Under the pieces are notes generated by a model that was given only the letters and a program-made list of their open reading frames with translations, was not told the origin of the DNA and made no database searches. Source: Rhodocytophaga rosea (GTDB lineage Bacteria; Bacteroidota; Bacteroidia; Cytophagales; 172606-1). From it: a stretch of DNA of 64,000 bases. The position numbers were made by a program, and so were the translations under genes. Position 1 is the first letter of the stretch, and each line of letters opens with the position of its first letter. This document shows, piece after piece, positions 79 through 38,756 of the stretch. The stretch is from NCBI RefSeq assembly GCF_010119975.1, contig NZ_CP048222.1, forward strand, positions 2,191,501-2,255,500. The letters run 5' to 3'.

Positions 79-2751
79 CTAATGACTGATTGCCTTTCTC
101 TTCATTCCAAAGTCCAGGATGGCATCAATAAAATGATAGGGCTTGTATCCATTGATGGCCGTCTGGTGGAAGATACAGGTAGCTGGTGTCATGCCGGGCA
201 GTGAATTTACTTCAATAATAATGGTTTCTGCCTGATTATTCTCATATACCCGCACAAATGCATCAATCCGGGCATAGCCTTCAATCTGTAAAATTTTGGC
301 TGTCTTTTCCAGTACTGCCCGAACCTGCGCAGAAATAGTTTTGTTGGCCTGTGGGTCACGGGAGAAACGGGCAGGTGTGATGTTTTGTCCTTCTCCGGCC
401 AGGAATTTCTCTTCGAGTGAAAGTACTTCGCCTACGGCCAGTGTTTCGGAAGGCTCAAATACTTCATATACCAGGTTTCCAGACTCATCGAGCTTAGTTA
501 ATAATCCGCCGGTAACTTCCAGAAAGTGTCTGGCTCCATTGGCTGTAATTAAATCCTCAATCAGGAAATAATCTTTCTGAGGAAATTCTTCATTGCGCTT
601 CAGGGAAAGTACCTGGATAGGACCAGATAAAAATTCTGGTAACTCCCGGAACATCATCTGGGCAAAAGCTTCCAGTTCCTGGCGGTTCTTTATCTTTTTA
701 ACAGCTGAGCTGCAACCATCGTCGGCAGGTTTGGCAATAATGGGATACCTGAACACTTTTTCAATATCGGCTATAGCCTGTGCGGGGTTTTGTACCCAGT
801 CATTTTTATACACCAGGGCATGGTTGGCTACACTGATGCCATGATTGCGCAGAATCCGGTTCGTTTCGTACTTATTAATCGTAATGCGTGAGCTCTCTAC
901 ACCAGATCCATTATAAGGCAATCCTACTTTTTCAAGCTCTGTCTGTACAGCGCCATCTTCACCCGGGCGTCCATGCAAGGCAATGAACACTTCATCTACC
1001 AGTTCTGCGAGTTCTGCATAGCTAATGGCATAGGGATATTCAAGCGCACTGCCTACATACTTGCTGGTGATATTTCCCGCCTCGGCTACAATCTTTTTGA
1101 TTACCGGGTGCTTTTCTTTCTGGGCGTGTACTTTTTCTTTAATATCATCGGCATTGTCTTTCAGCATGATGTTAATCGGCATCACATATAGCTCATGGTT
1201 TCCTTCGCTGCCAGTGAGGAATACCGGAACAGGCTGGTATTTTACCGACGAACTGAGCTTCTCATAAATATTGCGGCCACTTTCCACCGAGATATGACGC
1301 TCCGAAGAAAATCCGCCCATAATCACTGCTACCTTGATCTTATCTACTGCGGCACTTTGCAGACGGATAATGTCCGCATCGAGTGTATTTAATTGATTTT
1401 GCAGATACAGGTTATTCTTGCCCGACTTAATTCTTTCATACAGGGAAGTCCGGATGATATAGGTCAGGAACTGGGATGGATTCAGGCCGATCTCTGCTGC
1501 CTGGTGGAAGAAGAAGGAAGAAGGCAGCATACCCGAGGTAGTATTGGGATCGTTCAGAAAAACTTCTCCTACGCTGTTAATAAACCCATCTATCCTAGCA
1601 TATACATTAAACTGCAACTGTTCAAACAGGCGGCTGCATTCGCTGCGAATTTTCTCGATATGGGCTTCTGGTACATGTATGGGTGTAACCTTGCGGCTCA
1701 TACCTGGCAAGTACTTGGAACGGTAATCAAATAATTCAGTGACTTTTACAATCTCCGTAGGTGGCAAAGCAATCGGTTTGCCTTGTTCGTCCTGCACCAC
1801 AATACATGAAAATTCTTTCCCGGGAATAAAGGACTCTATCAGTATAGATTCTTCTCCATTTACATTCATTAAGGTTACTTGCTCCTCACGCGAATTATTG
1901 AGATAATTTAGCAAGGCTTCCGGATGATGGAGCAAAGTACCGTTGGCATACACAGGCAAGCCAATTCCTTCCCGTATATCGGCAAGTGAAGTAATAAAGC
2001 GTATTTTCTGTTCTTCTGAATAGGTTTTCCAGGTAGCGGTGTACACTTCCTGAATGAACAAGCTGCGGTTAACACCAGCTACGAACCTGGCATTGTCTTT
2101 CTCATTGAGTACAGATACCCCGATGGAAGAACCCTGGTTAGGCGCTTTTATCACAAAGGGCAATCCGATCTGGTGAATAAGCTTCTCCAGCAAGTCACCC
2201 TTGTACTCAGTGTTGAGCCATTCGGTGCGGGTAAAAGTTGTTGTACGGGGAGAAGCAAAACCAGCATTACGCATCAGGTCTTTTTGCACCTTCTTGTTGA
2301 TTCCGATCGCAGAAGATAAAATACCGGAACCGGAATAGGGAATATTATACCACTCCAGCAAGCCCTGGATATTGCCATCTTCCCCAAACGGACCATGTAA
2401 TGTAAGAAAAGCAAAATCAAAGTATTGCCTGAACTCTTCCGGACGTATACGTTTGCCTACCTTGTTGATAATGGCATCCTGTTCTGAAATGCTTAAATCT
2501 CCTAAGGATTCAATATAGATCTGAAAATTATAGGAAGAAGCCGGCAGGGCACTTACCGGAGGGTAAAAATCCCGGATGGTTCCTTTATAGATATATTCCC
2601 AGTTGAGTAAAATGAAATTGCCTAAGCTATCTACAAACACAGGTACAGCTTCAAACAAGCTTTTATTCAGATTGTCATAGACGGTTCTGCCACCGGCGAA
2701 GGAGATCTCCCGCTCACGCGACTGACCCCCGAAAAATATTCCTATTCTCAT
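79..2751 (-). CDS. ddl: Tandem (two-copy) D-alanine--D-alanine ligase
   Basis: An ATP-grasp enzyme that joins two D-alanines for peptidoglycan, acting in the cytoplasm. The usual Ddl is about 300-370 residues; this one is 890 because two complete ligase copies are fused. Copy 1 starts at residue 1 (FFGGQSRERE) and copy 2 at about 472 (VAVIMGGFSSERH). Each has the LHG..GEDG motif (about 118-126 and 592-600) and the PY(S/N)GSG motif (about 138 and 612). Copy 1 has the ATP-binding loop APNQGSSIGV (203-212) but a changed metal motif, NDPNTTSGM (400-408) in place of the usual EVNTxPGM. Copy 2 keeps EVNSLPGM (847-854) but its loop reads KPADDGCSSAV. Copy 1 also has an insert around 240-300. Whether both halves are active, or make a dipeptide other than D-Ala-D-Ala, cannot be told from the sequence. 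Confidence 0.88.
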   Translation of the reverse strand: MRIGIFFGGQSREREISFAGGRTVYDNLNKSLFEAVPVFVDSLGNFILLNWEYIYKGTIRDFYPPVSALPASSYNFQIYIESLGDLSISEQDAIINKVGKRIRPEEFRQYFDFAFLTLHGPFGEDGNIQGLLEWYNIPYSGSGILSSAIGINKKVQKDLMRNAGFASPRTTTFTRTEWLNTEYKGDLLEKLIHQIGLPFVIKAPNQGSSIGVSVLNEKDNARFVAGVNRSLFIQEVYTATWKTYSEEQKIRFITSLADIREGIGLPVYANGTLLHHPEALLNYLNNSREEQVTLMNVNGEESILIESFIPGKEFSCIVVQDEQGKPIALPPTEIVKVTELFDYRSKYLPGMSRKVTPIHVPEAHIEKIRSECSRLFEQLQFNVYARIDGFINSVGEVFLNDPNTTSGMLPSSFFFHQAAEIGLNPSQFLTYIIRTSLYERIKSGKNNLYLQNQLNTLDADIIRLQSAAVDKIKVAVIMGGFSSERHISVESGRNIYEKLSSSVKYQPVPVFLTGSEGNHELYVMPINIMLKDNADDIKEKVHAQKEKHPVIKKIVAEAGNITSKYVGSALEYPYAISYAELAELVDEVFIALHGRPGEDGAVQTELEKVGLPYNGSGVESSRITINKYETNRILRNHGISVANHALVYKNDWVQNPAQAIADIEKVFRYPIIAKPADDGCSSAVKKIKNRQELEAFAQMMFRELPEFLSGPIQVLSLKRNEEFPQKDYFLIEDLITANGARHFLEVTGGLLTKLDESGNLVYEVFEPSETLAVGEVLSLEEKFLAGEGQNITPARFSRDPQANKTISAQVRAVLEKTAKILQIEGYARIDAFVRVYENNQAETIIIEVNSLPGMTPATCIFHQTAINGYKPYHFIDAILDFGMKRKAISH

Positions 2752-2947: not shown

Positions 2948-3631
2948 TTAGGCGGCCAGAGGTTTCTCTTCTTTACGGACTTTCCTGAGAAAAGAGATAT
3001 CGAAATAATCTTTTACCTGGCCAGTCTGTTCGGCATTTTCCAGCAGAATATATAAGAGGTTCTTATATAATTGAATCGCCAGTGCTTTGCGCTTGGATTT
3101 ACTCTCGCTTGAAATTCCTTTCAGACTCCCAATCGCCTGTAACTGTTCGGTCCGGCAGTTTACATATGCATCCATCAGGCTTTGCGCTTCTTTGGCAATA
3201 TCTTTCCCGATCACAGCCGAGTGAGTCTGTGCAGCCTTCACAAAACGTTCTGCCACTACCTGTAAATTCTTTTTGGATGCATTCCGGTATTCACTTAAGC
3301 CCTGTGGGAAAAACTCCTGGTAAACCGGAGAATTTCTGGGAAACTTATCTGCAATCACTCCCTCTTTGCGTCCGATATAAGCCTTCAGGGCATTCAGGGT
3401 TTCGTTGGTGCGCATGGTTTTGCTCTCCTTGGTAGAACTGCTGCCGCTGCCTGTAAACAATGTACCTACAAAAGCCTGATATAAAGGTTCCGTTAATGTA
3501 ATCAGGGCATCATACCGGTTACTGCTATTACCAGCTTTTAAACGCTCAATGTGCGTACTGGCCAGCTTACCGAAATTTGTATCGCTGATCTCAGCATTGA
3601 GGAAAGGATTTCTTAAATGATTGAGAAACAT
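2948..3631 (-). CDS. Uncharacterised protein, 227 aa
   Basis: I do not recognise this family. The protein is soluble-looking, with no signal peptide or membrane segment, and mostly helical by composition. A Ser/Gly-rich loop (GSGSSSTKES) falls at about 62-71. The C-terminal half is rich in Lys, Glu and Gln and ends in a basic stretch (FLRKVRKEEKPLAA). It is transcribed away from the DUF2911 gene, and the region between them is filled by a 42-bp-period tandem array. The good open frame, a typical ATG start and codon use like its neighbours support a real gene. Confidence 0.7.
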   Translation of the reverse strand: MFLNHLRNPFLNAEISDTNFGKLASTHIERLKAGNSSNRYDALITLTEPLYQAFVGTLFTGSGSSSTKESKTMRTNETLNALKAYIGRKEGVIADKFPRNSPVYQEFFPQGLSEYRNASKKNLQVVAERFVKAAQTHSAVIGKDIAKEAQSLMDAYVNCRTEQLQAIGSLKGISSESKSKRKALAIQLYKNLLYILLENAEQTGQVKDYFDISFLRKVRKEEKPLAA

Positions 3632-3674
3632 ATGGATTGGGCTTATAAAATACGTATGAATCTATATAAGCTTA

Positions 3675-4056
3675 CCGACCTGCACAACAGGAAGGAATAA
3701 AACCTGTAAAATCAGGGCAACCGGACAAGTCAGGATATAGCAAAAACAAAAAATTATACCCTCCGGCATTATCAGACCCTACTAAAAACTTACATTTATT
3801 CCATCCGGTGTAAAACGGACACCTTAAATCGTTGCAGGTATGGCATCCGAACAAGTACGGATATAGCAAATTCATAAATATGAAGCATCCGTTTTTGTCC
3901 GGATATAACAAATTCTTTTCATTGCAATGCCCGCAACAACCCGGATACCACTAATACAAAAATGTATACTACCCGGAACAATACGGATGCTATACATTAA
4001 AATATTCTAAAAAGCCGGTATCTGACAACAGGCTACAACAAATTTTTATATGAGTA
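3675..4056. repeat. Degenerate tandem array, 42-bp period, about 8-9 units
   Basis: CCG triplets occur exactly 42 bp apart at 3721, 3763, 3805, 3847, 3889, 3931, 3973 and 4015. A likely ninth unit at 3675 is 46 bp long. Most units read CCG-N8-CGG (or a near form) followed by ATATAGCAAATT-like sequence; the best are at 3847, 3889 and 3973. At 3845-3862 and 3887-3904 the arms extend to ATCCG-N8-CGGAT, an 18-bp dyad. The rest of each unit is A/T-rich and poorly kept. Because 42 is a multiple of three, the minus strand is open from 3911 to 3672 and would encode a 14-residue repeat (LLYPDLSGC-like). I treat that frame as a by-product. The array sits between two divergent genes (starts at 3631 and 4223). 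Confidence 0.75.
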
Positions 4057-4222
4057 CAGCTCTGGTACACTGCCTCGCTATGTATGAATGCAGGCTTGCC
4101 TGGCAGGATAGTTCTTTTATATTACATCTTACATGTATCTCCCTATATGAAAAAATGAAACATTCTTCTTTAATTTGCTGCCTGATTCATTTACACCTAC
4201 ACTAATTATTAAGTATAACCCT

Positions 4223-5071
4223 ATGAAAAAAGTATTGCATACTTTAGTTTTTGTTTTAATAGCTTGTTGTTGTATCACCGAAGGAGTACAGGCACAAATT
4301 AATATGCCGGCAGCTAGTCCATCGGCTACACTCACACAGCAAGTAGGACTTGGAGAAGTAAAGATCTCTTATTCCCGCCCCAGCATGAAGGGCCGGAAGA
4401 TATTTGGCGGCTTAAAACCGTATGGTGAAGTATGGCGAACTGGTGCTAATGCAGCTACTACCATCACCTTCAGTGAAGAAGTTATGCTGGAGGGCAAAAA
4501 AGTTCCGGCTGGCACCTATGCTATTATGTCGATTCCCGGAGAAACAGAATGGGTAGTGATCTTAAGTAAAAACCTTAAGGTATCTGAAGGCGATTATAAA
4601 CAATCGGATGACCAGGCCCGCTTTACGGTGAAGCCTGCTAAAACAGGGAGCCCCTACGAAACCCTTACTATTGATATTTCTGACCTTACGAACAGCACCG
4701 CACTAATCAATATTAAGTGGGAAAACACGAAGGTAAGCCTCAAGCTGGAAACCGAAGTAGATGCGAAGGTAATGGCCCAGATCAAGGATAGAATGGAACC
4801 TAATGCGAATGTATATTACCAGGCCGCTGTATATTATATGGAATCAGGCAAAGACCTGAAACAGGCCATGGAATGGATGAACAAAGCAACAGTGAAAGAT
4901 GCACAGTTCTGGCAATTACACCAGAAAGCAAAGCTACAGGCGAAACTCAACGATAACAAAGGTGCTATTGAATCAGCCAAGAAGTCGATTGAGCTGGCTA
5001 AAATTGCCAAGAATAGTGATTATGTGCGTATGAACGAAAGCCTGATCGCTGAATTGCAGAAAGCAAAGTAA
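4223..5071 (+). CDS. DUF2911 domain-containing secreted protein
   Basis: Starts MKKVLHTLVFVLIACCC with a signal peptide ending near VQAQ, so it is probably periplasmic or exported. A longer frame begins at 4175 but would put 16 non-signal residues before MKK, so 4223 is chosen. The DUF2911 hallmark is clear at about residues 35-80: YSRPSMKGRKIFG, then PYGEVWRTGAN and AGTYA. The last 90 residues (MEPNANVYYQAAVYYMESGKDLKQAMEWMNKA and onwards) are helical and resemble TPR repeats. The biochemical function of DUF2911 is unknown. It is a single-gene unit closed by a strong hairpin at 5115-5147. Confidence 0.85.
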   Translation: MKKVLHTLVFVLIACCCITEGVQAQINMPAASPSATLTQQVGLGEVKISYSRPSMKGRKIFGGLKPYGEVWRTGANAATTITFSEEVMLEGKKVPAGTYAIMSIPGETEWVVILSKNLKVSEGDYKQSDDQARFTVKPAKTGSPYETLTIDISDLTNSTALINIKWENTKVSLKLETEVDAKVMAQIKDRMEPNANVYYQAAVYYMESGKDLKQAMEWMNKATVKDAQFWQLHQKAKLQAKLNDNKGAIESAKKSIELAKIAKNSDYVRMNESLIAELQKAK

Positions 5072-9877: not shown

Positions 9878-10417
9878 TTAATTTTTGCGCAAAATGGCAG
9901 CAAGAAAGCCTGTACCCAGCAGGCAGACGAGAAATTTCTTTATGAATACATCTACGGCTACATGAACAGCCGTTGTACCGGAAATTCTGTCTAACGTATT
10001 TGTATAGGCTTCTTTGCCAAATCCTTCTTCTACCTGCTGTCTGGTCTGGATCATTAAATTTTTCAAATCTGCGATATGGCCAGTGAGTACTTCAGGTTCA
10101 ATAAAAGCGATAAAAACGTAGATAATAAGGGTAGAAAGCAGCGTTGCCATCAGGTTGGTATACAATCCAATCAAAATTCCTTCCCAGAAATGCATTTTGC
10201 CGGCTTTCCATTTGTCGCGGTAATAGCCCATAGCAATGGCCATACAAATACATACAATAGCCATATCATACGAACTCATTCGCAGTAACGGACTTTTCCC
10301 CAGCCAGTAAAATACAAAGAAATACAGCGATACCAGCAACGCAGCTATCACTCCGGCAATAAGAGATATTTTTGTATAATCTTTGATAAGCATAGATAGC
10401 AAGGTTAATCTCTCCAT
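9878..10417 (-). CDS. DUF4199-like membrane protein, divergent copy
   Basis: About 179 residues from MERLTLL at 10417. A frame-extended start at 10465 and a later one at 10393 (MLIKDYTK) are possible; the later one begins closest to the family start. Four hydrophobic helices are visible: ISLIAGVIAALLVSLYFFVFYWLG, MAIVCICMAIAMGYY, an ATLLSTLIIYVFIAFI helix and FLVCLLGTGFLAAIL. The loop KNLMIQTRQQVEEGFGKEAY matches the amphipathic loop of the neighbouring DUF4199 protein. Function is unknown. Confidence 0.72.
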   Translation of the reverse strand: MERLTLLSMLIKDYTKISLIAGVIAALLVSLYFFVFYWLGKSPLLRMSSYDMAIVCICMAIAMGYYRDKWKAGKMHFWEGILIGLYTNLMATLLSTLIIYVFIAFIEPEVLTGHIADLKNLMIQTRQQVEEGFGKEAYTNTLDRISGTTAVHVAVDVFIKKFLVCLLGTGFLAAILRKN

Positions 10418-10755
10418 GGTTGGAAAGCAGGCAAGTATAAAAGCATAATCTTTTATTCCCAACAAAGTTTACTAATTTGTAAAAATTCAATAGGAGTCTG
10501 GTAATTTAAATCAGAAGCAAATACGCTGAATATCCAGTATGCCAGGAAGGCGGCGAAGATTTATGGCCATCTATTCATACTGTCTTGCACAATTCTTTAG
10601 CTCAGCGAAACGTTTTTGAAACAGGCAAAGTTAATTAATCAGGTATCTGCTGATTGCCACGATATAACAGTTCTGCACGCCTTCTGTCTTCAGTGAATGA
10701 CTTATTGCTGTAATAGATTGTGTAGCTGCATTAATTTAATTATTTTTGATAGTAC
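10418..10755. other. Intergenic region with promoter
   Basis: About 340 bp between divergent genes. No gene or strong hairpin is seen. The right end carries the promoter-like pair annotated at 10718-10748. Confidence 0.4.
10718..10748 (+). promoter_or_regulatory. Bacteroidota-type promoter for the BatA-domain gene
   Basis: TTG at 10718-10720, a 20-base spacer, then TATTTTTG at 10741-10748, an exact match to the TAnnTTTG -7 box. The ATG is at 10756, only eight bases past the box, so the leader would be very short. Confidence 0.5.
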
Positions 10756-12918: not shown

Positions 12919-14214
12919 ATGAAGATACATATCCCCTCTGCCCAGATTATTGACCCCAAATCTCCCTTTAACGGACAGCAAAAACAACTCTGGATTGAAA
13001 ATGGCCTGATCGCCAGCATCACTGATGCAGCGGAAAAAGCTGGTAAAGAAGCAGACTATGTAGTAGATATTGCTGGGCTGAAAGTTTCTCCGGGCTGGGT
13101 AGATATGCGAGTGGCGGCCAAAGATCCGGGCTACGAACACCAGGAAGATTTATTTTCGGTACGGGAGGCTGCGGCAGCCGGTGGGTTCACTGAAATTGCT
13201 TTACTGCCCAATACCCATCCGGTGGTACAAACCAAAGAGGCTGTTACGTATGTGCAAACCAAGGGAAATACACATGCAGTAAAAGTGTATCCCATGGCGG
13301 CTGTTTCCATAGATATTAAAGGCAAAGAGCTCACAGAAATGATCGACCTTCACATGGCTGGAGCCATTGCATTTACTGATGGACTCAAACCGGTATGGCA
13401 TTCCGATATTCTGGTAAAAACACTTCAATACCTTCAAACATTTGGTGGCCTGCTTATTAACCGTCCGGAAGATGTGCTGTTGACACAATTCGGGCAAATG
13501 CATGAAGGCGTTACCAGTACAATGCTTGGATTAAAAGGAATACCAGCTTTGGCCGAAGAAATGATGATTGCCAGAGATTTACGTTTTCTGCAATATGCCG
13601 GAGGAAAAATTCATTTTTCAGCCATATCCACGGCTACTTCTATAGAACTCATCCGGCAGGCTAAACGCCAGGGCTTACAGGTAACTTGTGACATGACTGC
13701 CCATCAGATCGCTTTTGACGATACGGCTTTATTGAATTTTGATACTAATTTGAAGGTAAATCCACCATTCCGCAGCCAGGCAGATATTGAAGCCCTCTGG
13801 CAAGGTTTAGCCGATGGAACTATAGATGCGATTGTATCTGATCATAATCCGCTTGATGAAGAGAGCAAAAAGCTGGAGTTTGATCTGGCTGAGTTCGGCA
13901 TTATTGGCTTACAAACGGCTTTTGCTGTAATACATACCCATAATCAGCTTTTATCGCTGGAACAACTTATTGAGAAATTCACCATCCGTCCAAGAGAGAT
14001 TCTGCAATTGCCGGCTGTACATATGGCAGAAGGTCAGCCTGCCAATCTTACGCTATTTACTACAGAGCAGGAATGGACGTTTACCGAAAAACAAATCCGT
14101 TCTAAATCCCGGAATACGCCTTTTATTGGACATACTTTTACAGGAAAGCCTGTAGGAATTATCAATAATGGGAAAGTTGTGTTGAGTGATGCGAGACCTG
14201 CGTACAGAAGATAA
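12919..14214 (+). CDS. pyrC: Dihydroorotase homologue lacking the HxH metal motif
   Basis: A 431-residue amidohydrolase-fold protein of the multifunctional-complex dihydroorotase type. Dihydroorotase cyclises carbamoyl-aspartate in pyrimidine synthesis. The family frame is clear: VSPGWVDMRV (56-65), EAAAAGGFTEIALLPNTHP (about 83-101), CDMTAHQIAFDD, AIVSDHNPLDEE and a C-terminal PANLTLF. However, the normal HxH ligands of strand 1 are replaced (Arg64, Ala66) and the substrate-binding Arg is Lys68. This suggests an inactive partner of aspartate transcarbamoylase, as known for some PyrC-like pseudoenzymes, or altered chemistry. I use the symbol only to mark homology. It follows the BatA-domain gene closely. 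Confidence 0.8.
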   Translation: MKIHIPSAQIIDPKSPFNGQQKQLWIENGLIASITDAAEKAGKEADYVVDIAGLKVSPGWVDMRVAAKDPGYEHQEDLFSVREAAAAGGFTEIALLPNTHPVVQTKEAVTYVQTKGNTHAVKVYPMAAVSIDIKGKELTEMIDLHMAGAIAFTDGLKPVWHSDILVKTLQYLQTFGGLLINRPEDVLLTQFGQMHEGVTSTMLGLKGIPALAEEMMIARDLRFLQYAGGKIHFSAISTATSIELIRQAKRQGLQVTCDMTAHQIAFDDTALLNFDTNLKVNPPFRSQADIEALWQGLADGTIDAIVSDHNPLDEESKKLEFDLAEFGIIGLQTAFAVIHTHNQLLSLEQLIEKFTIRPREILQLPAVHMAEGQPANLTLFTTEQEWTFTEKQIRSKSRNTPFIGHTFTGKPVGIINNGKVVLSDARPAYRR

Positions 14215-37643: not shown

Positions 37644-38756
37644 CTACTCGCTCACTACCATTTTTCCCTCATTATATTTGTTTCTGCTGTCTTCTGCATC
37701 GGCATCGCCAAAGCCATGTGGATAGACAGTAAAGCTATTGGGGTCAGCACCAGTAAGGATAGTAGTTTTGTAAAATACATGCGTATGATCGCTGCCATAT
37801 CCATGGCCTAATACTTTGAAACTATTTACATCCGCTTGCTTTACTTGTTTGTGCTGCCAGTATACCGAAGCTTTATCCCTGGCATAATAAAAATCCTGCG
37901 TGAGGGAATCATTAGCTGCATATAATTCAAAAGAAGTAACATCGACACCTGCTATTTTCTGAGTTTCGAAATAAACAGCGTTCTGGTCTTTGGAATAGCC
38001 GTTTTTCAATACCTGAAAGCTGGCAATATGTACCTGAGGCATCTTTTCATTTTCATAAACTACCTGATTATCATCTTTTGAAAAGGGATAGTCTAATACC
38101 TGAAAGGCAGCAGGGTTGCAAGGCAGGATATAAATATCCTCTTTTACTTCTCCAGGATGCCCATAAAAATATACCTGGGCTTTGTCTTTGGCGTAATGGT
38201 AATCAATCACTTCAAACGTTTTTCCATCGCTGCCTGCAATCGGTTTACGGTTAAAATACGCCTGCATCTGATCTCTGGAAAAATACCTGTCGATGCCTTC
38301 AAAAGTGGCGATGTCTTTTACAGGAAATGCTGTTCCTTCAAAATAAGCAAAGCGGCCATCCTTTGCATAGCCACCTCCCAGGCTTGTAAATGAATCAGCA
38401 ATAGCTTTGTCAACAATAGTGATGGTTTTCCGTTTGGTTAAAAAGTAGTTCTGGCTTTCCCGGTATTCATCGCAATAATATACCCGGTTTTTGTCTTTGG
38501 CGTATTGCTCATCCAGGGCCTGAAAGGTTACTATATCGGCATCTGTAATTACTTGATCTTTGTAATAGATATAGGCCGAATCTTTGGCAAATACATCATT
38601 AAGCACTACAAAATTTTTATCCGTAATTTCCCGGCCGTTGAAGGTAATTTTGCCGTCCTTTTCTTTATAGCCTGAATTGCAGCGGAACACAGATACCAGA
38701 CCAGTGAGAATGAAGATTGATTTAAATATCCATTTTACTAGTTTAACTAACGGCAT
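37644..38756 (-). CDS. DKNYY-repeat protein
   Basis: 370 residues: an N-terminal hydrophobic segment (about 8-26) with a cysteine after it (FRCNSG) that could be a weak lipoprotein site, then nine copies of a repeat with the core [YF]-[AGS]-K-D-x-x-x-[AV]-[YF]-[YFW]. Examples are YAKDKNRVYYCDE, YAKDKAQVYFYG, FSKDDNQVVYENEKM, YSKDQNAVYFET and YARDKASVYWQHK, spaced about 30-40 residues. These are DKNYY repeats, whose function is not known. The protein is probably exported. A palindrome ends the gene upstream (38792-38817). Confidence 0.8.
   Translation of the reverse strand: MPLVKLVKWIFKSIFILTGLVSVFRCNSGYKEKDGKITFNGREITDKNFVVLNDVFAKDSAYIYYKDQVITDADIVTFQALDEQYAKDKNRVYYCDEYRESQNYFLTKRKTITIVDKAIADSFTSLGGGYAKDGRFAYFEGTAFPVKDIATFEGIDRYFSRDQMQAYFNRKPIAGSDGKTFEVIDYHYAKDKAQVYFYGHPGEVKEDIYILPCNPAAFQVLDYPFSKDDNQVVYENEKMPQVHIASFQVLKNGYSKDQNAVYFETQKIAGVDVTSFELYAANDSLTQDFYYARDKASVYWQHKQVKQADVNSFKVLGHGYGSDHTHVFYKTTILTGADPNSFTVYPHGFGDADAEDSRNKYNEGKMVVSE

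Follow-up and report, generated by a model that had tools for sequence, protein, structure and literature searches.

The window analysed here, a 64-kb stretch of an 8.98-Mb genome, contains a 592-bp gap (positions 3632-4223) between a minus-strand gene for a 227-aa orphan protein, the founding member of what we call family 1, and a plus-strand DUF2911 gene. The gap holds nine units of 42 bp at 3679-4056. The features of the locus are as follows.

79-2751, minus strand: gene encoding two D-Ala-D-Ala-ligase modules; it lies downstream of the 227-aa gene both in the window and in G001
2948-3631, minus strand: 227-aa orphan gene (family 1), putative owner of the array; all-helical model, pI 9.6
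3679-4056, no strand: array of nine 42-bp units, eight of which have an in-phase CCG; lag-42 identity 0.51, 0 of 1000 shuffles
3721-3734, no strand: dyad A, CCG-N8-AGG; 5 of 7 pairs
3763-3776, no strand: degraded dyad A, CCG-N8-AGA; 2 of 7 pairs
3805-3818, no strand: dyad A, CCG-N8-CGG; 5 of 7 pairs
3847-3860, no strand: dyad A, CCG-N8-CGG; the best unit, with 5 of 7 pairs (7 of 10 when the flanks are counted)
3868-3881, no strand: weak midway box B, a tentative example from the unit consensus; complementarity 0.50
3889-3902, no strand: dyad A, CCG-N8-CGG; 3 of 7 pairs
3931-3944, no strand: dyad A, CCG-N8-CGG; 3 of 7 pairs
3973-3986, no strand: dyad A, CCG-N8-CGG; 4 of 7 pairs
4015-4028, no strand: degraded dyad A, CCG-N8-CAA; 2 of 7 pairs
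4223-5071, plus strand: divergent neighbour, a DUF2911 gene; no strong 42-bp array at its orthologue loci

The 42-bp array described in an earlier note on this DNA is real. Among lags of 15-100, lag 42 is the top lag in the window, with an identity of 0.51, and its harmonics at 84, 126, 168, 210 and 252 are likewise elevated. Within the gap the identity of 0.512 was matched by none of 1000 dinucleotide-preserving shuffles at any lag from 15 to 109 (shuffle mean 0.352, maximum 0.399). The CCG trinucleotides fall exactly where the note had placed them, at 3721, 3763, 3805, 3847, 3889, 3931, 3973 and 4015; these are eight of the 11 CCGs of the gap, and none of 2000 shuffles reached this in-phase count. 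The accompanying statement that CCG is followed eight bases later by CGG or a close form holds strictly, with CGG, in five of the eight units (3805, 3847, 3889, 3931 and 3973); the corresponding triplet is AGG at 3721, AGA at 3763 and CAA at 4015. A looser unit supposed to start at 3675 did not stand: the CCG there is 4 bp off phase, and the in-phase start at 3679 carries no dyad (1 of 7 pairs). The note had proposed Tandem Repeats Finder or an autocorrelation as checks; Tandem Repeats Finder does not report the 42-bp array in the window, whereas the lag analysis detects it at lag 42. Whole units drift together, and no cas gene was found among the tested neighbours of the array (D-Ala ligase, DUF2911, DUF1206 and others), in agreement with the note's view that the array is not CRISPR-like.

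In the window array alone, the CCG dyad has an arm complementarity of 0.61 (z 3.2 among 84 phases), against 0.64 for a competing phase. It stands moderately over the other phases, and its main support comes from relatives. The unit consensus also contains a midway AT-rich box, box B (AAAT-N6-ATTT), whose centre is 21.0 bp away from that of the CCG dyad. Since the arm complementarity of box B is 0.50 (centre 27.5) against 0.61 for the CCG dyad, and another phase reaches 0.64, the second box is only suggestive in this array taken by itself. A coding origin of the repeat was also considered, 42 bp being 14 codons and a 79-aa minus-strand ORF (3672-3911) spanning part of the array; it was rejected because the frame of the ORF has stops in other units, there is no Pfam hit, and some relatives use 41 bp. 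Elsewhere in the window, a degenerate 87-bp (29-codon) period at 37880-38490 is probably a coding repeat.

The array had been attributed to the region shared by both divergent genes. At eight DUF2911 orthologue loci we found no strong 42-bp lag in the best five windows per locus, the nearest approach being a weak lag-42 score (z 4.0) at L050, and DUF2911 was rejected as the owner of the array. In G001, a genome of the same genus, the 227-aa and D-Ala-ligase genes are adjacent as in the window and the divergent neighbour differs. The intergenic DNA upstream of the homologues closest to the 227-aa gene, those of G001 and of G006 (same family as the window genome), does not align with the window. 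Both upstream regions nevertheless keep a lag of 41-43 bp (G001: z 4.4, reached by 2 of 500 shuffles; G006: z 5.3, reached by none of 500). On these comparisons the array goes with the 227-aa gene rather than with both divergent genes. They also bear out the note's claim that the spacing matters, for which it had named absence from relatives as the adverse outcome: the spacing persists upstream of both homologues, where the intergenic DNA has ceased to align, and it is present at most family-1 loci.

Querying 61 genomes of the genus to which G035 belongs with a paralogue produced 27 matches, which come from 10 genomes. We take this genus to be Hymenobacter because the protein at L172 (G055) is identical to the one from Hymenobacter persicinus. 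An unbiased scan of lags 12-109 returned a best lag of 41 or 42 in 23 of the 27 loci and of 84 in one; the remaining three (L179, L185, L190) are partial matches. An order-wide profile search that scored no more than nine candidates in each genome recovered family 1 in 15 of 291 genomes, spread over 5 of 115 genera; single genomes hold up to nine copies among the candidates scored, and loci were fetched for 30 of the 54 matches. With lags 40-43 scanned at distinct loci (those fetched twice being left out), an array of z at least 6 was present at 37 of 43 family-1 loci, or at 37 of 47 if we count four fragment loci without a 41-43-bp array that stood outside the scan (L179, L185, L190 and L213). 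The six loci under the threshold are L003, L194, L199, L203, L206 and L209, among which L203 has an array at lag 84. Of 42 array-bearing loci tested (the 43 minus L003, L199, L203, L206 and L209, plus L219-L222), 37 had a best lag of 41 or 42 and the other five one of 82-85.

Genes being called by a simple longest-ORF rule, 22 of the 37 family-1 arrays lie upstream and 15 downstream of the gene; at L198 some 0.7 kb separate the array from the ORF downstream of it. All five named Hymenobacter loci have the array upstream: persicinus (L172, with L218 dropped as identical to it), H. lucidus, H. jeollabukensis, H. edaphi and H. nitidus. Outside the family of Hymenobacter, L217 (G113) carries a very regular 42-bp array with a lag identity of 0.84 and a weak dyad, and two other loci of the same genome (L199 and L209) have no clear array. 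The background in 800 kb of G035, a rate that includes the family genes, is 10 upstream and 15 downstream gene-array adjacencies per 588 predicted genes. The array is linked to the family-1 gene.

The relatives also define the geometry of the dyads. In 26 even-centred arrays, among the 33 of 43 that passed selection, the arms are complementary in 0.67-0.82 of units at pairs 3-7 from the centre and in 0.56 at pair 8. The two innermost pairs, which were not used in the selection, are complementary in 0.46-0.49 of units, where chance gives about a quarter. When the mean dyad score is plotted against the offset from the best dyad centre, 29 lag-42 arrays give one sharp peak, at 21.0 bp, and lag-41 arrays (n=11) give the same peak at 20.5 bp; a single array may count in both sets. 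Many arrays therefore alternate two dyads that are two helix turns apart. Period, dyads and midway dyad are all features of family 1, whose arrays are for the most part rows of dyads. A midway dyad at 21.0 bp is compatible with sites that share one helix face, and the part of the note's proposal that spoke of such a row agrees with this result. In arrays of the group-2 family, the B box nearest the gene, which is the last one, looks inverted (an A-run becoming a T-run) and cap-like (L220 3898-3934, L221 3920-3936, L218 3921-3934).

While the geometry is constant, the letters are not. Dyad letters differ between paralogues and between orthologues, and dyads may be unrelated even between family-1 homologues sharing 60% identity or more. 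Dyad similarity is 0.395 for proteins at least 60% identical versus 0.314-0.319 for distant ones. The protein-dyad correlation is weak (Mantel 74/2000, 32 loci), and coevolution of protein and dyad finds weak support in it. Eight dyad patterns from seven G035 arrays were searched in 800 kb: six are confined to their own array, and one stray match each was obtained with the remaining pair, a 15-mer containing a 3-base gap and a 10-mer searched on a single strand. Spacing is retained while sequence turns over, and in the sampled DNA the dyads are nearly private to their own array. Arrays upstream of the D-Ala-ligase gene were seen in G035 (L102 18421-18650, TTTGAGGNNNCCTCAAA, lag 41) and in G082 (L279, about 836-966 on the reverse strand, GGTTGGGTAGCTACCCAACC, lag 42); the ligase segments are 94% identical, yet the dyads of the two arrays are unrelated. 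Five other genomes have no 42-bp array upstream of this gene, and the D-Ala-ligase locus, with an array in one of six genomes besides G035, was rejected as a conserved array site.

The other part of the note's proposal, operator sites, is not supported if these are read as ordinary operators of one regulator. The genome search that the note suggested for the dyad pattern gave no excess: outside the array, 864 kb of the window genome show no enrichment of TCCG-N8-CGGA, with 8 sites (2 intergenic) where gaps of 2-14 give 4-17 (0-3 intergenic). A regulon of dyad sites is not supported by this count. A longer motif searched with two mismatches in the whole genome occurs 447/437 times against 270/260 for its control, which is not palindromic. 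That excess, together with the position of the dyads in a divergent promoter region, is what speaks for a row of ordinary operators through which one transcription factor with a regulon governs both divergent genes. The near-privacy of the G035 dyads, the flat 864-kb count, the DUF2911 orthologue loci without a strong array and the persistence of the lag in G001 beside a different divergent neighbour all weigh against it, and we consider it extremely unlikely.

Arrays of the same phase accompany two further gene families. The family-2 probe, a 160-aa gene adjoining a 21-bp array in G035, matched 81 times, in 39 of the 101 genomes searched from the same genus; 30 of these loci were fetched, the probe's own included. 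An array lies directly 3' of the gene in 28 of them, with a best lag of 21, 42, 63, 84 or 105, and is absent at L267 and L271. Family-2 dyads are mostly odd-centred (17 of the 20 that passed selection, out of 28). The family-3 probe, a 218-aa gene found beside a 42-bp array in G050, gave 33 matches in 18 of 61 genomes. Among six fetched family-3 loci, five have a 21/42 array upstream (at L275 as the second-ranked hit) and one, L277, has none; no clear dyad was found in the family-3 arrays. No homology among the three families is detectable (hhalign E 0.14, 0.021 and 0.51, probabilities <3%), and none of the three has a Pfam match above cut-off.

Some arrays lie beside other genes. In 800 kb of G035, 18 hits with z>7 occur at lags near 21, 42 or 63, of which four adjoin a family-1 or family-2 gene and 14 do not; several of the 14 are low-complexity or non-palindromic. 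A 400-kb sample of three more genomes of that genus (G050, G058 and G070) gave three hits near lag 21 or 42, and none of the z>7 hits there is a clearly palindromic array. G050, although a control genome, carries families 2 and 3, and the 42-bp array seen there belongs to family 3.

These observations bear on a neutral origin, in which slippage, favouring multiples of the helical turn, yields tandem copies that then decay. Such minisatellites would explain why the units of one array are homologous and have been homogenised, why some arrays, such as that of G001, have decayed, and why arrays also adjoin ordinary genes. Family-wide linkage, dyad symmetry and an exact midway dyad are unexpected of neutral repeats, and the 400 kb of the three other genomes yielded no clearly palindromic 42-bp array among the z>7 hits. 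The simple decaying minisatellite that the note had offered as its alternative fails to account for one spacing across unrelated sequences and three protein families, and we regard the neutral reading as distinctly unlikely. Spread on plasmids or viruses was likewise rejected: one query each of families 1 and 2 gave no plasmid match in PLSDB (tblastn), and alignments A3 and A6 found no confirmed relative in viral_contigs.

Substitution patterns within the dyads are informative about the level at which symmetry is maintained. Double changes keep complementarity in 24 of 54 cases in family 1 and in 25 of 46 (lag 42) and 46 of 86 (lag 21) in family 2, where one third is expected. Single mismatches of the G.T and A.C types stand at 36:32 in family 1, 26:23 in family 2 at lag 42 and 47:25 in family 2 at lag 21. 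Because double changes keep complementarity and G.T and A.C are balanced in two of the three sets, the comparison tends to favour symmetry at the DNA level rather than RNA hairpins. The innermost pairs, complementary more often than chance would give, speak for DNA in the same way.

An RNA reading would make the locus similar to a type III toxin-antitoxin system, a transcribed repeat RNA binding or neutralising the protein of the adjacent solo gene. A solo gene of ~230 aa preceded directly by a repeat array of its own is indeed similar to the toxIN layout; the repeats differ between paralogues, and the family-2 excess of G.T at lag 21 (47:25) points the same way. This excess does not recur in family 1 or in family 2 at lag 42, and at many loci the array is 3' of the gene, which fits poorly. 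A fixed 21/42 spacing has no known RNA reason. A scan of the window and L220 found nothing terminator-like between the array and the gene in the window, and one such site at the last array unit in L220 (shuffle mean 1.0). Rfam gave no hits at gathering score in six loci (31.7 kb), and the all-helical protein has no Pfam or PADLOC toxin match. We consider the RNA reading very unlikely.

The main rival to our preferred reading is a sequence-agnostic symmetric element, in which symmetry and the 21-bp phase would be inherited instead of sequence, a shared factor reads the shape of the palindrome (or extruded hairpins) and the orphan proteins are cargo or partners; it would be the more novel case, and we judge it unlikely. 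It would account for close homologues with unrelated dyads at a constant period, for the different dyads upstream of the D-Ala-ligase gene in G035 and G082, for a spacing common to three families without detectable homology, and for arrays beside ordinary genes. Retention of complementarity above one third in double changes is what it predicts, but the excess of 24/54 is small and the 21-bp figure (46/86) is inflated by the alternating boxes. The innermost pairs are under less constraint than the arms, like hairpin loops; against this, they are symmetric above chance. Cruciforms with 5-7-bp arms are energetically unlikely, which counts against hairpin extrusion.

The protein itself was modelled with AlphaFold2 from six sequences. 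The 227-aa protein is predicted to be all-helical, with two helices of ~56 residues (mean pLDDT 80, pTM 0.57); a Hymenobacter member gave a poorer model (pLDDT 67, pTM 0.44). Foldseek found no match to the family-1 model in the PDB at E<=0.001 (best 0.19), and no recognised DNA-binding domain was found in the 227-aa protein. Its Pfam and PADLOC toxin searches gave no match above cut-off, the best sub-threshold E values being 0.026 and 0.038, respectively, to other families (for PADLOC, a 2TM effector). The window protein has a pI of 9.6, and the family-1 median is 8.9 (range 5.7-9.9), so that binding of the array by the neighbour's product is plausible for part of family 1. The medians of families 2 and 3 are 5.9 and 4.9; direct DNA binding by their own products is doubtful because those proteins are acidic.

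Our best reading, to which we give slightly less than an even chance, is that the array acts in cis as a DNA element tied to the 227-aa gene, with sites on one face of the helix and a docked protein that switches or organises transcription of the gene. The element would be a row of two-fold symmetric sites with centres 21 bp, or two helix turns, apart, in which a strong dyad alternates with a weaker one, giving a sequence repeat every 42 bp. Steps of 21 bp would put every site on one side of the helix, and an oligomeric protein could dock along the row and thereby switch or organise the neighbour's transcription. For family 1, the gene's own product would be the most plausible docker, giving autoregulation with private specificity. 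We infer that a protein binds the row, that the binder is the neighbour's product, and that the outcome is regulation of that gene. Several observations count against this reading: 15 of the 37 family-1 arrays are downstream and that of L198 is some way from its ORF, 10 of the 47 loci are without a clear array, and the window has only five strict units. The failure to recognise a DNA-binding domain or a PDB fold, the acidity of families 2 and 3, the unrelated dyads of close homologues, the 14 of 18 G035 hits that adjoin other genes, and the want of a clear dyad in family 3 and at L217 weigh on the same side.

A broader claim, which is possible but doubtful, is that such arrays form a new class of element in Cytophagales-type bacteria, with inherited symmetry and a 21-bp step, letters that turn over in concert, private to the locus and coupled to at least three orphan families. 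With similar reserve we suggest that a DNA platform addressed by phase and symmetry would differ from an operator, CRISPR, REP or antitoxin array. ParR-parC systems and iterons are operator or centromere rows of autoregulating plasmid proteins, with private sites beside the gene of the binder. The arrays resemble them in placing a private row of sites beside the gene of the presumed binder. They differ in lying on chromosome-sized contigs with no match in the plasmid collection (one query each for families 1 and 2), in lacking a known DNA-binding domain, and in reaching nine copies per genome among the best nine candidates scored. Minisatellites (VNTR) consist of tandem, homogenised units, some of them decayed, as do these arrays; the constant unit length across unrelated sequences, the internal and midway dyads and the linkage to gene families set the arrays apart. 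CRISPR loci combine conserved repeats with unrelated spacers and cas genes; here whole units drift together, and the neighbouring genes that were tested include no cas.

Type III toxin-antitoxin loci (toxIN, cptIN, tenpIN; reviewed in PMC5086642) combine a solo small-protein gene with its own adjoining tandem array, and to that extent the loci described here are alike. The present loci differ in the palindromic 21/42-bp phase of the DNA, in arrays that are sometimes 3' of the gene, in little G-U signal, in the all-helical family-1 model and in the absence of a ToxN match in Pfam and PADLOC. REP/BIME elements (e.g. PMC3733652) are intergenic palindromes, as are the dyads here; unlike them, our dyads are not dispersed, being almost limited to one array in the sampled DNA, and keep a fixed 21/42-bp phase. 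Searches confined to an open-access full-text library turned up no description of such arrays, and the novelty of the arrays is therefore provisional. Conserved geometry without conserved sequence is rare, and it is testable. If phase and symmetry turn out to be functional, the arrays would be a kind of cis-element that Tandem Repeats Finder missed here, and would offer a first handle on orphan families with up to nine copies per genome (best nine candidates scored).

Other phased repeats were seen in passing. The genome of the window has a second phased array (L110 about 10343-10593, about 2285.84-2286.09 Mb) with lags 21, 42, 63, 84, 105, 126 and 147 all elevated and an unrelated sequence; it is flanked by a 280-aa gene and by what we take to be a DJ-1/PfpI-like gene. 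A weak array at L120 (about 13361-13560; lags 21, 41-42, 62 and 83) adjoins a gene pair that is presumably an IS630-like transposase. In G003, from another genus of the window's family, a period-28 array with AACTGGA..TCCAGTT dyads lies at L137 (about 4711-5010). Finally, an inverted pair, GTAGAGACGCA...TGCGTCTCTAC, lies beside the array at L092 (about 3654-3735; G035 C1 near 1863.65 kb), and motifs resembling this pair also occur near L005 and L166.
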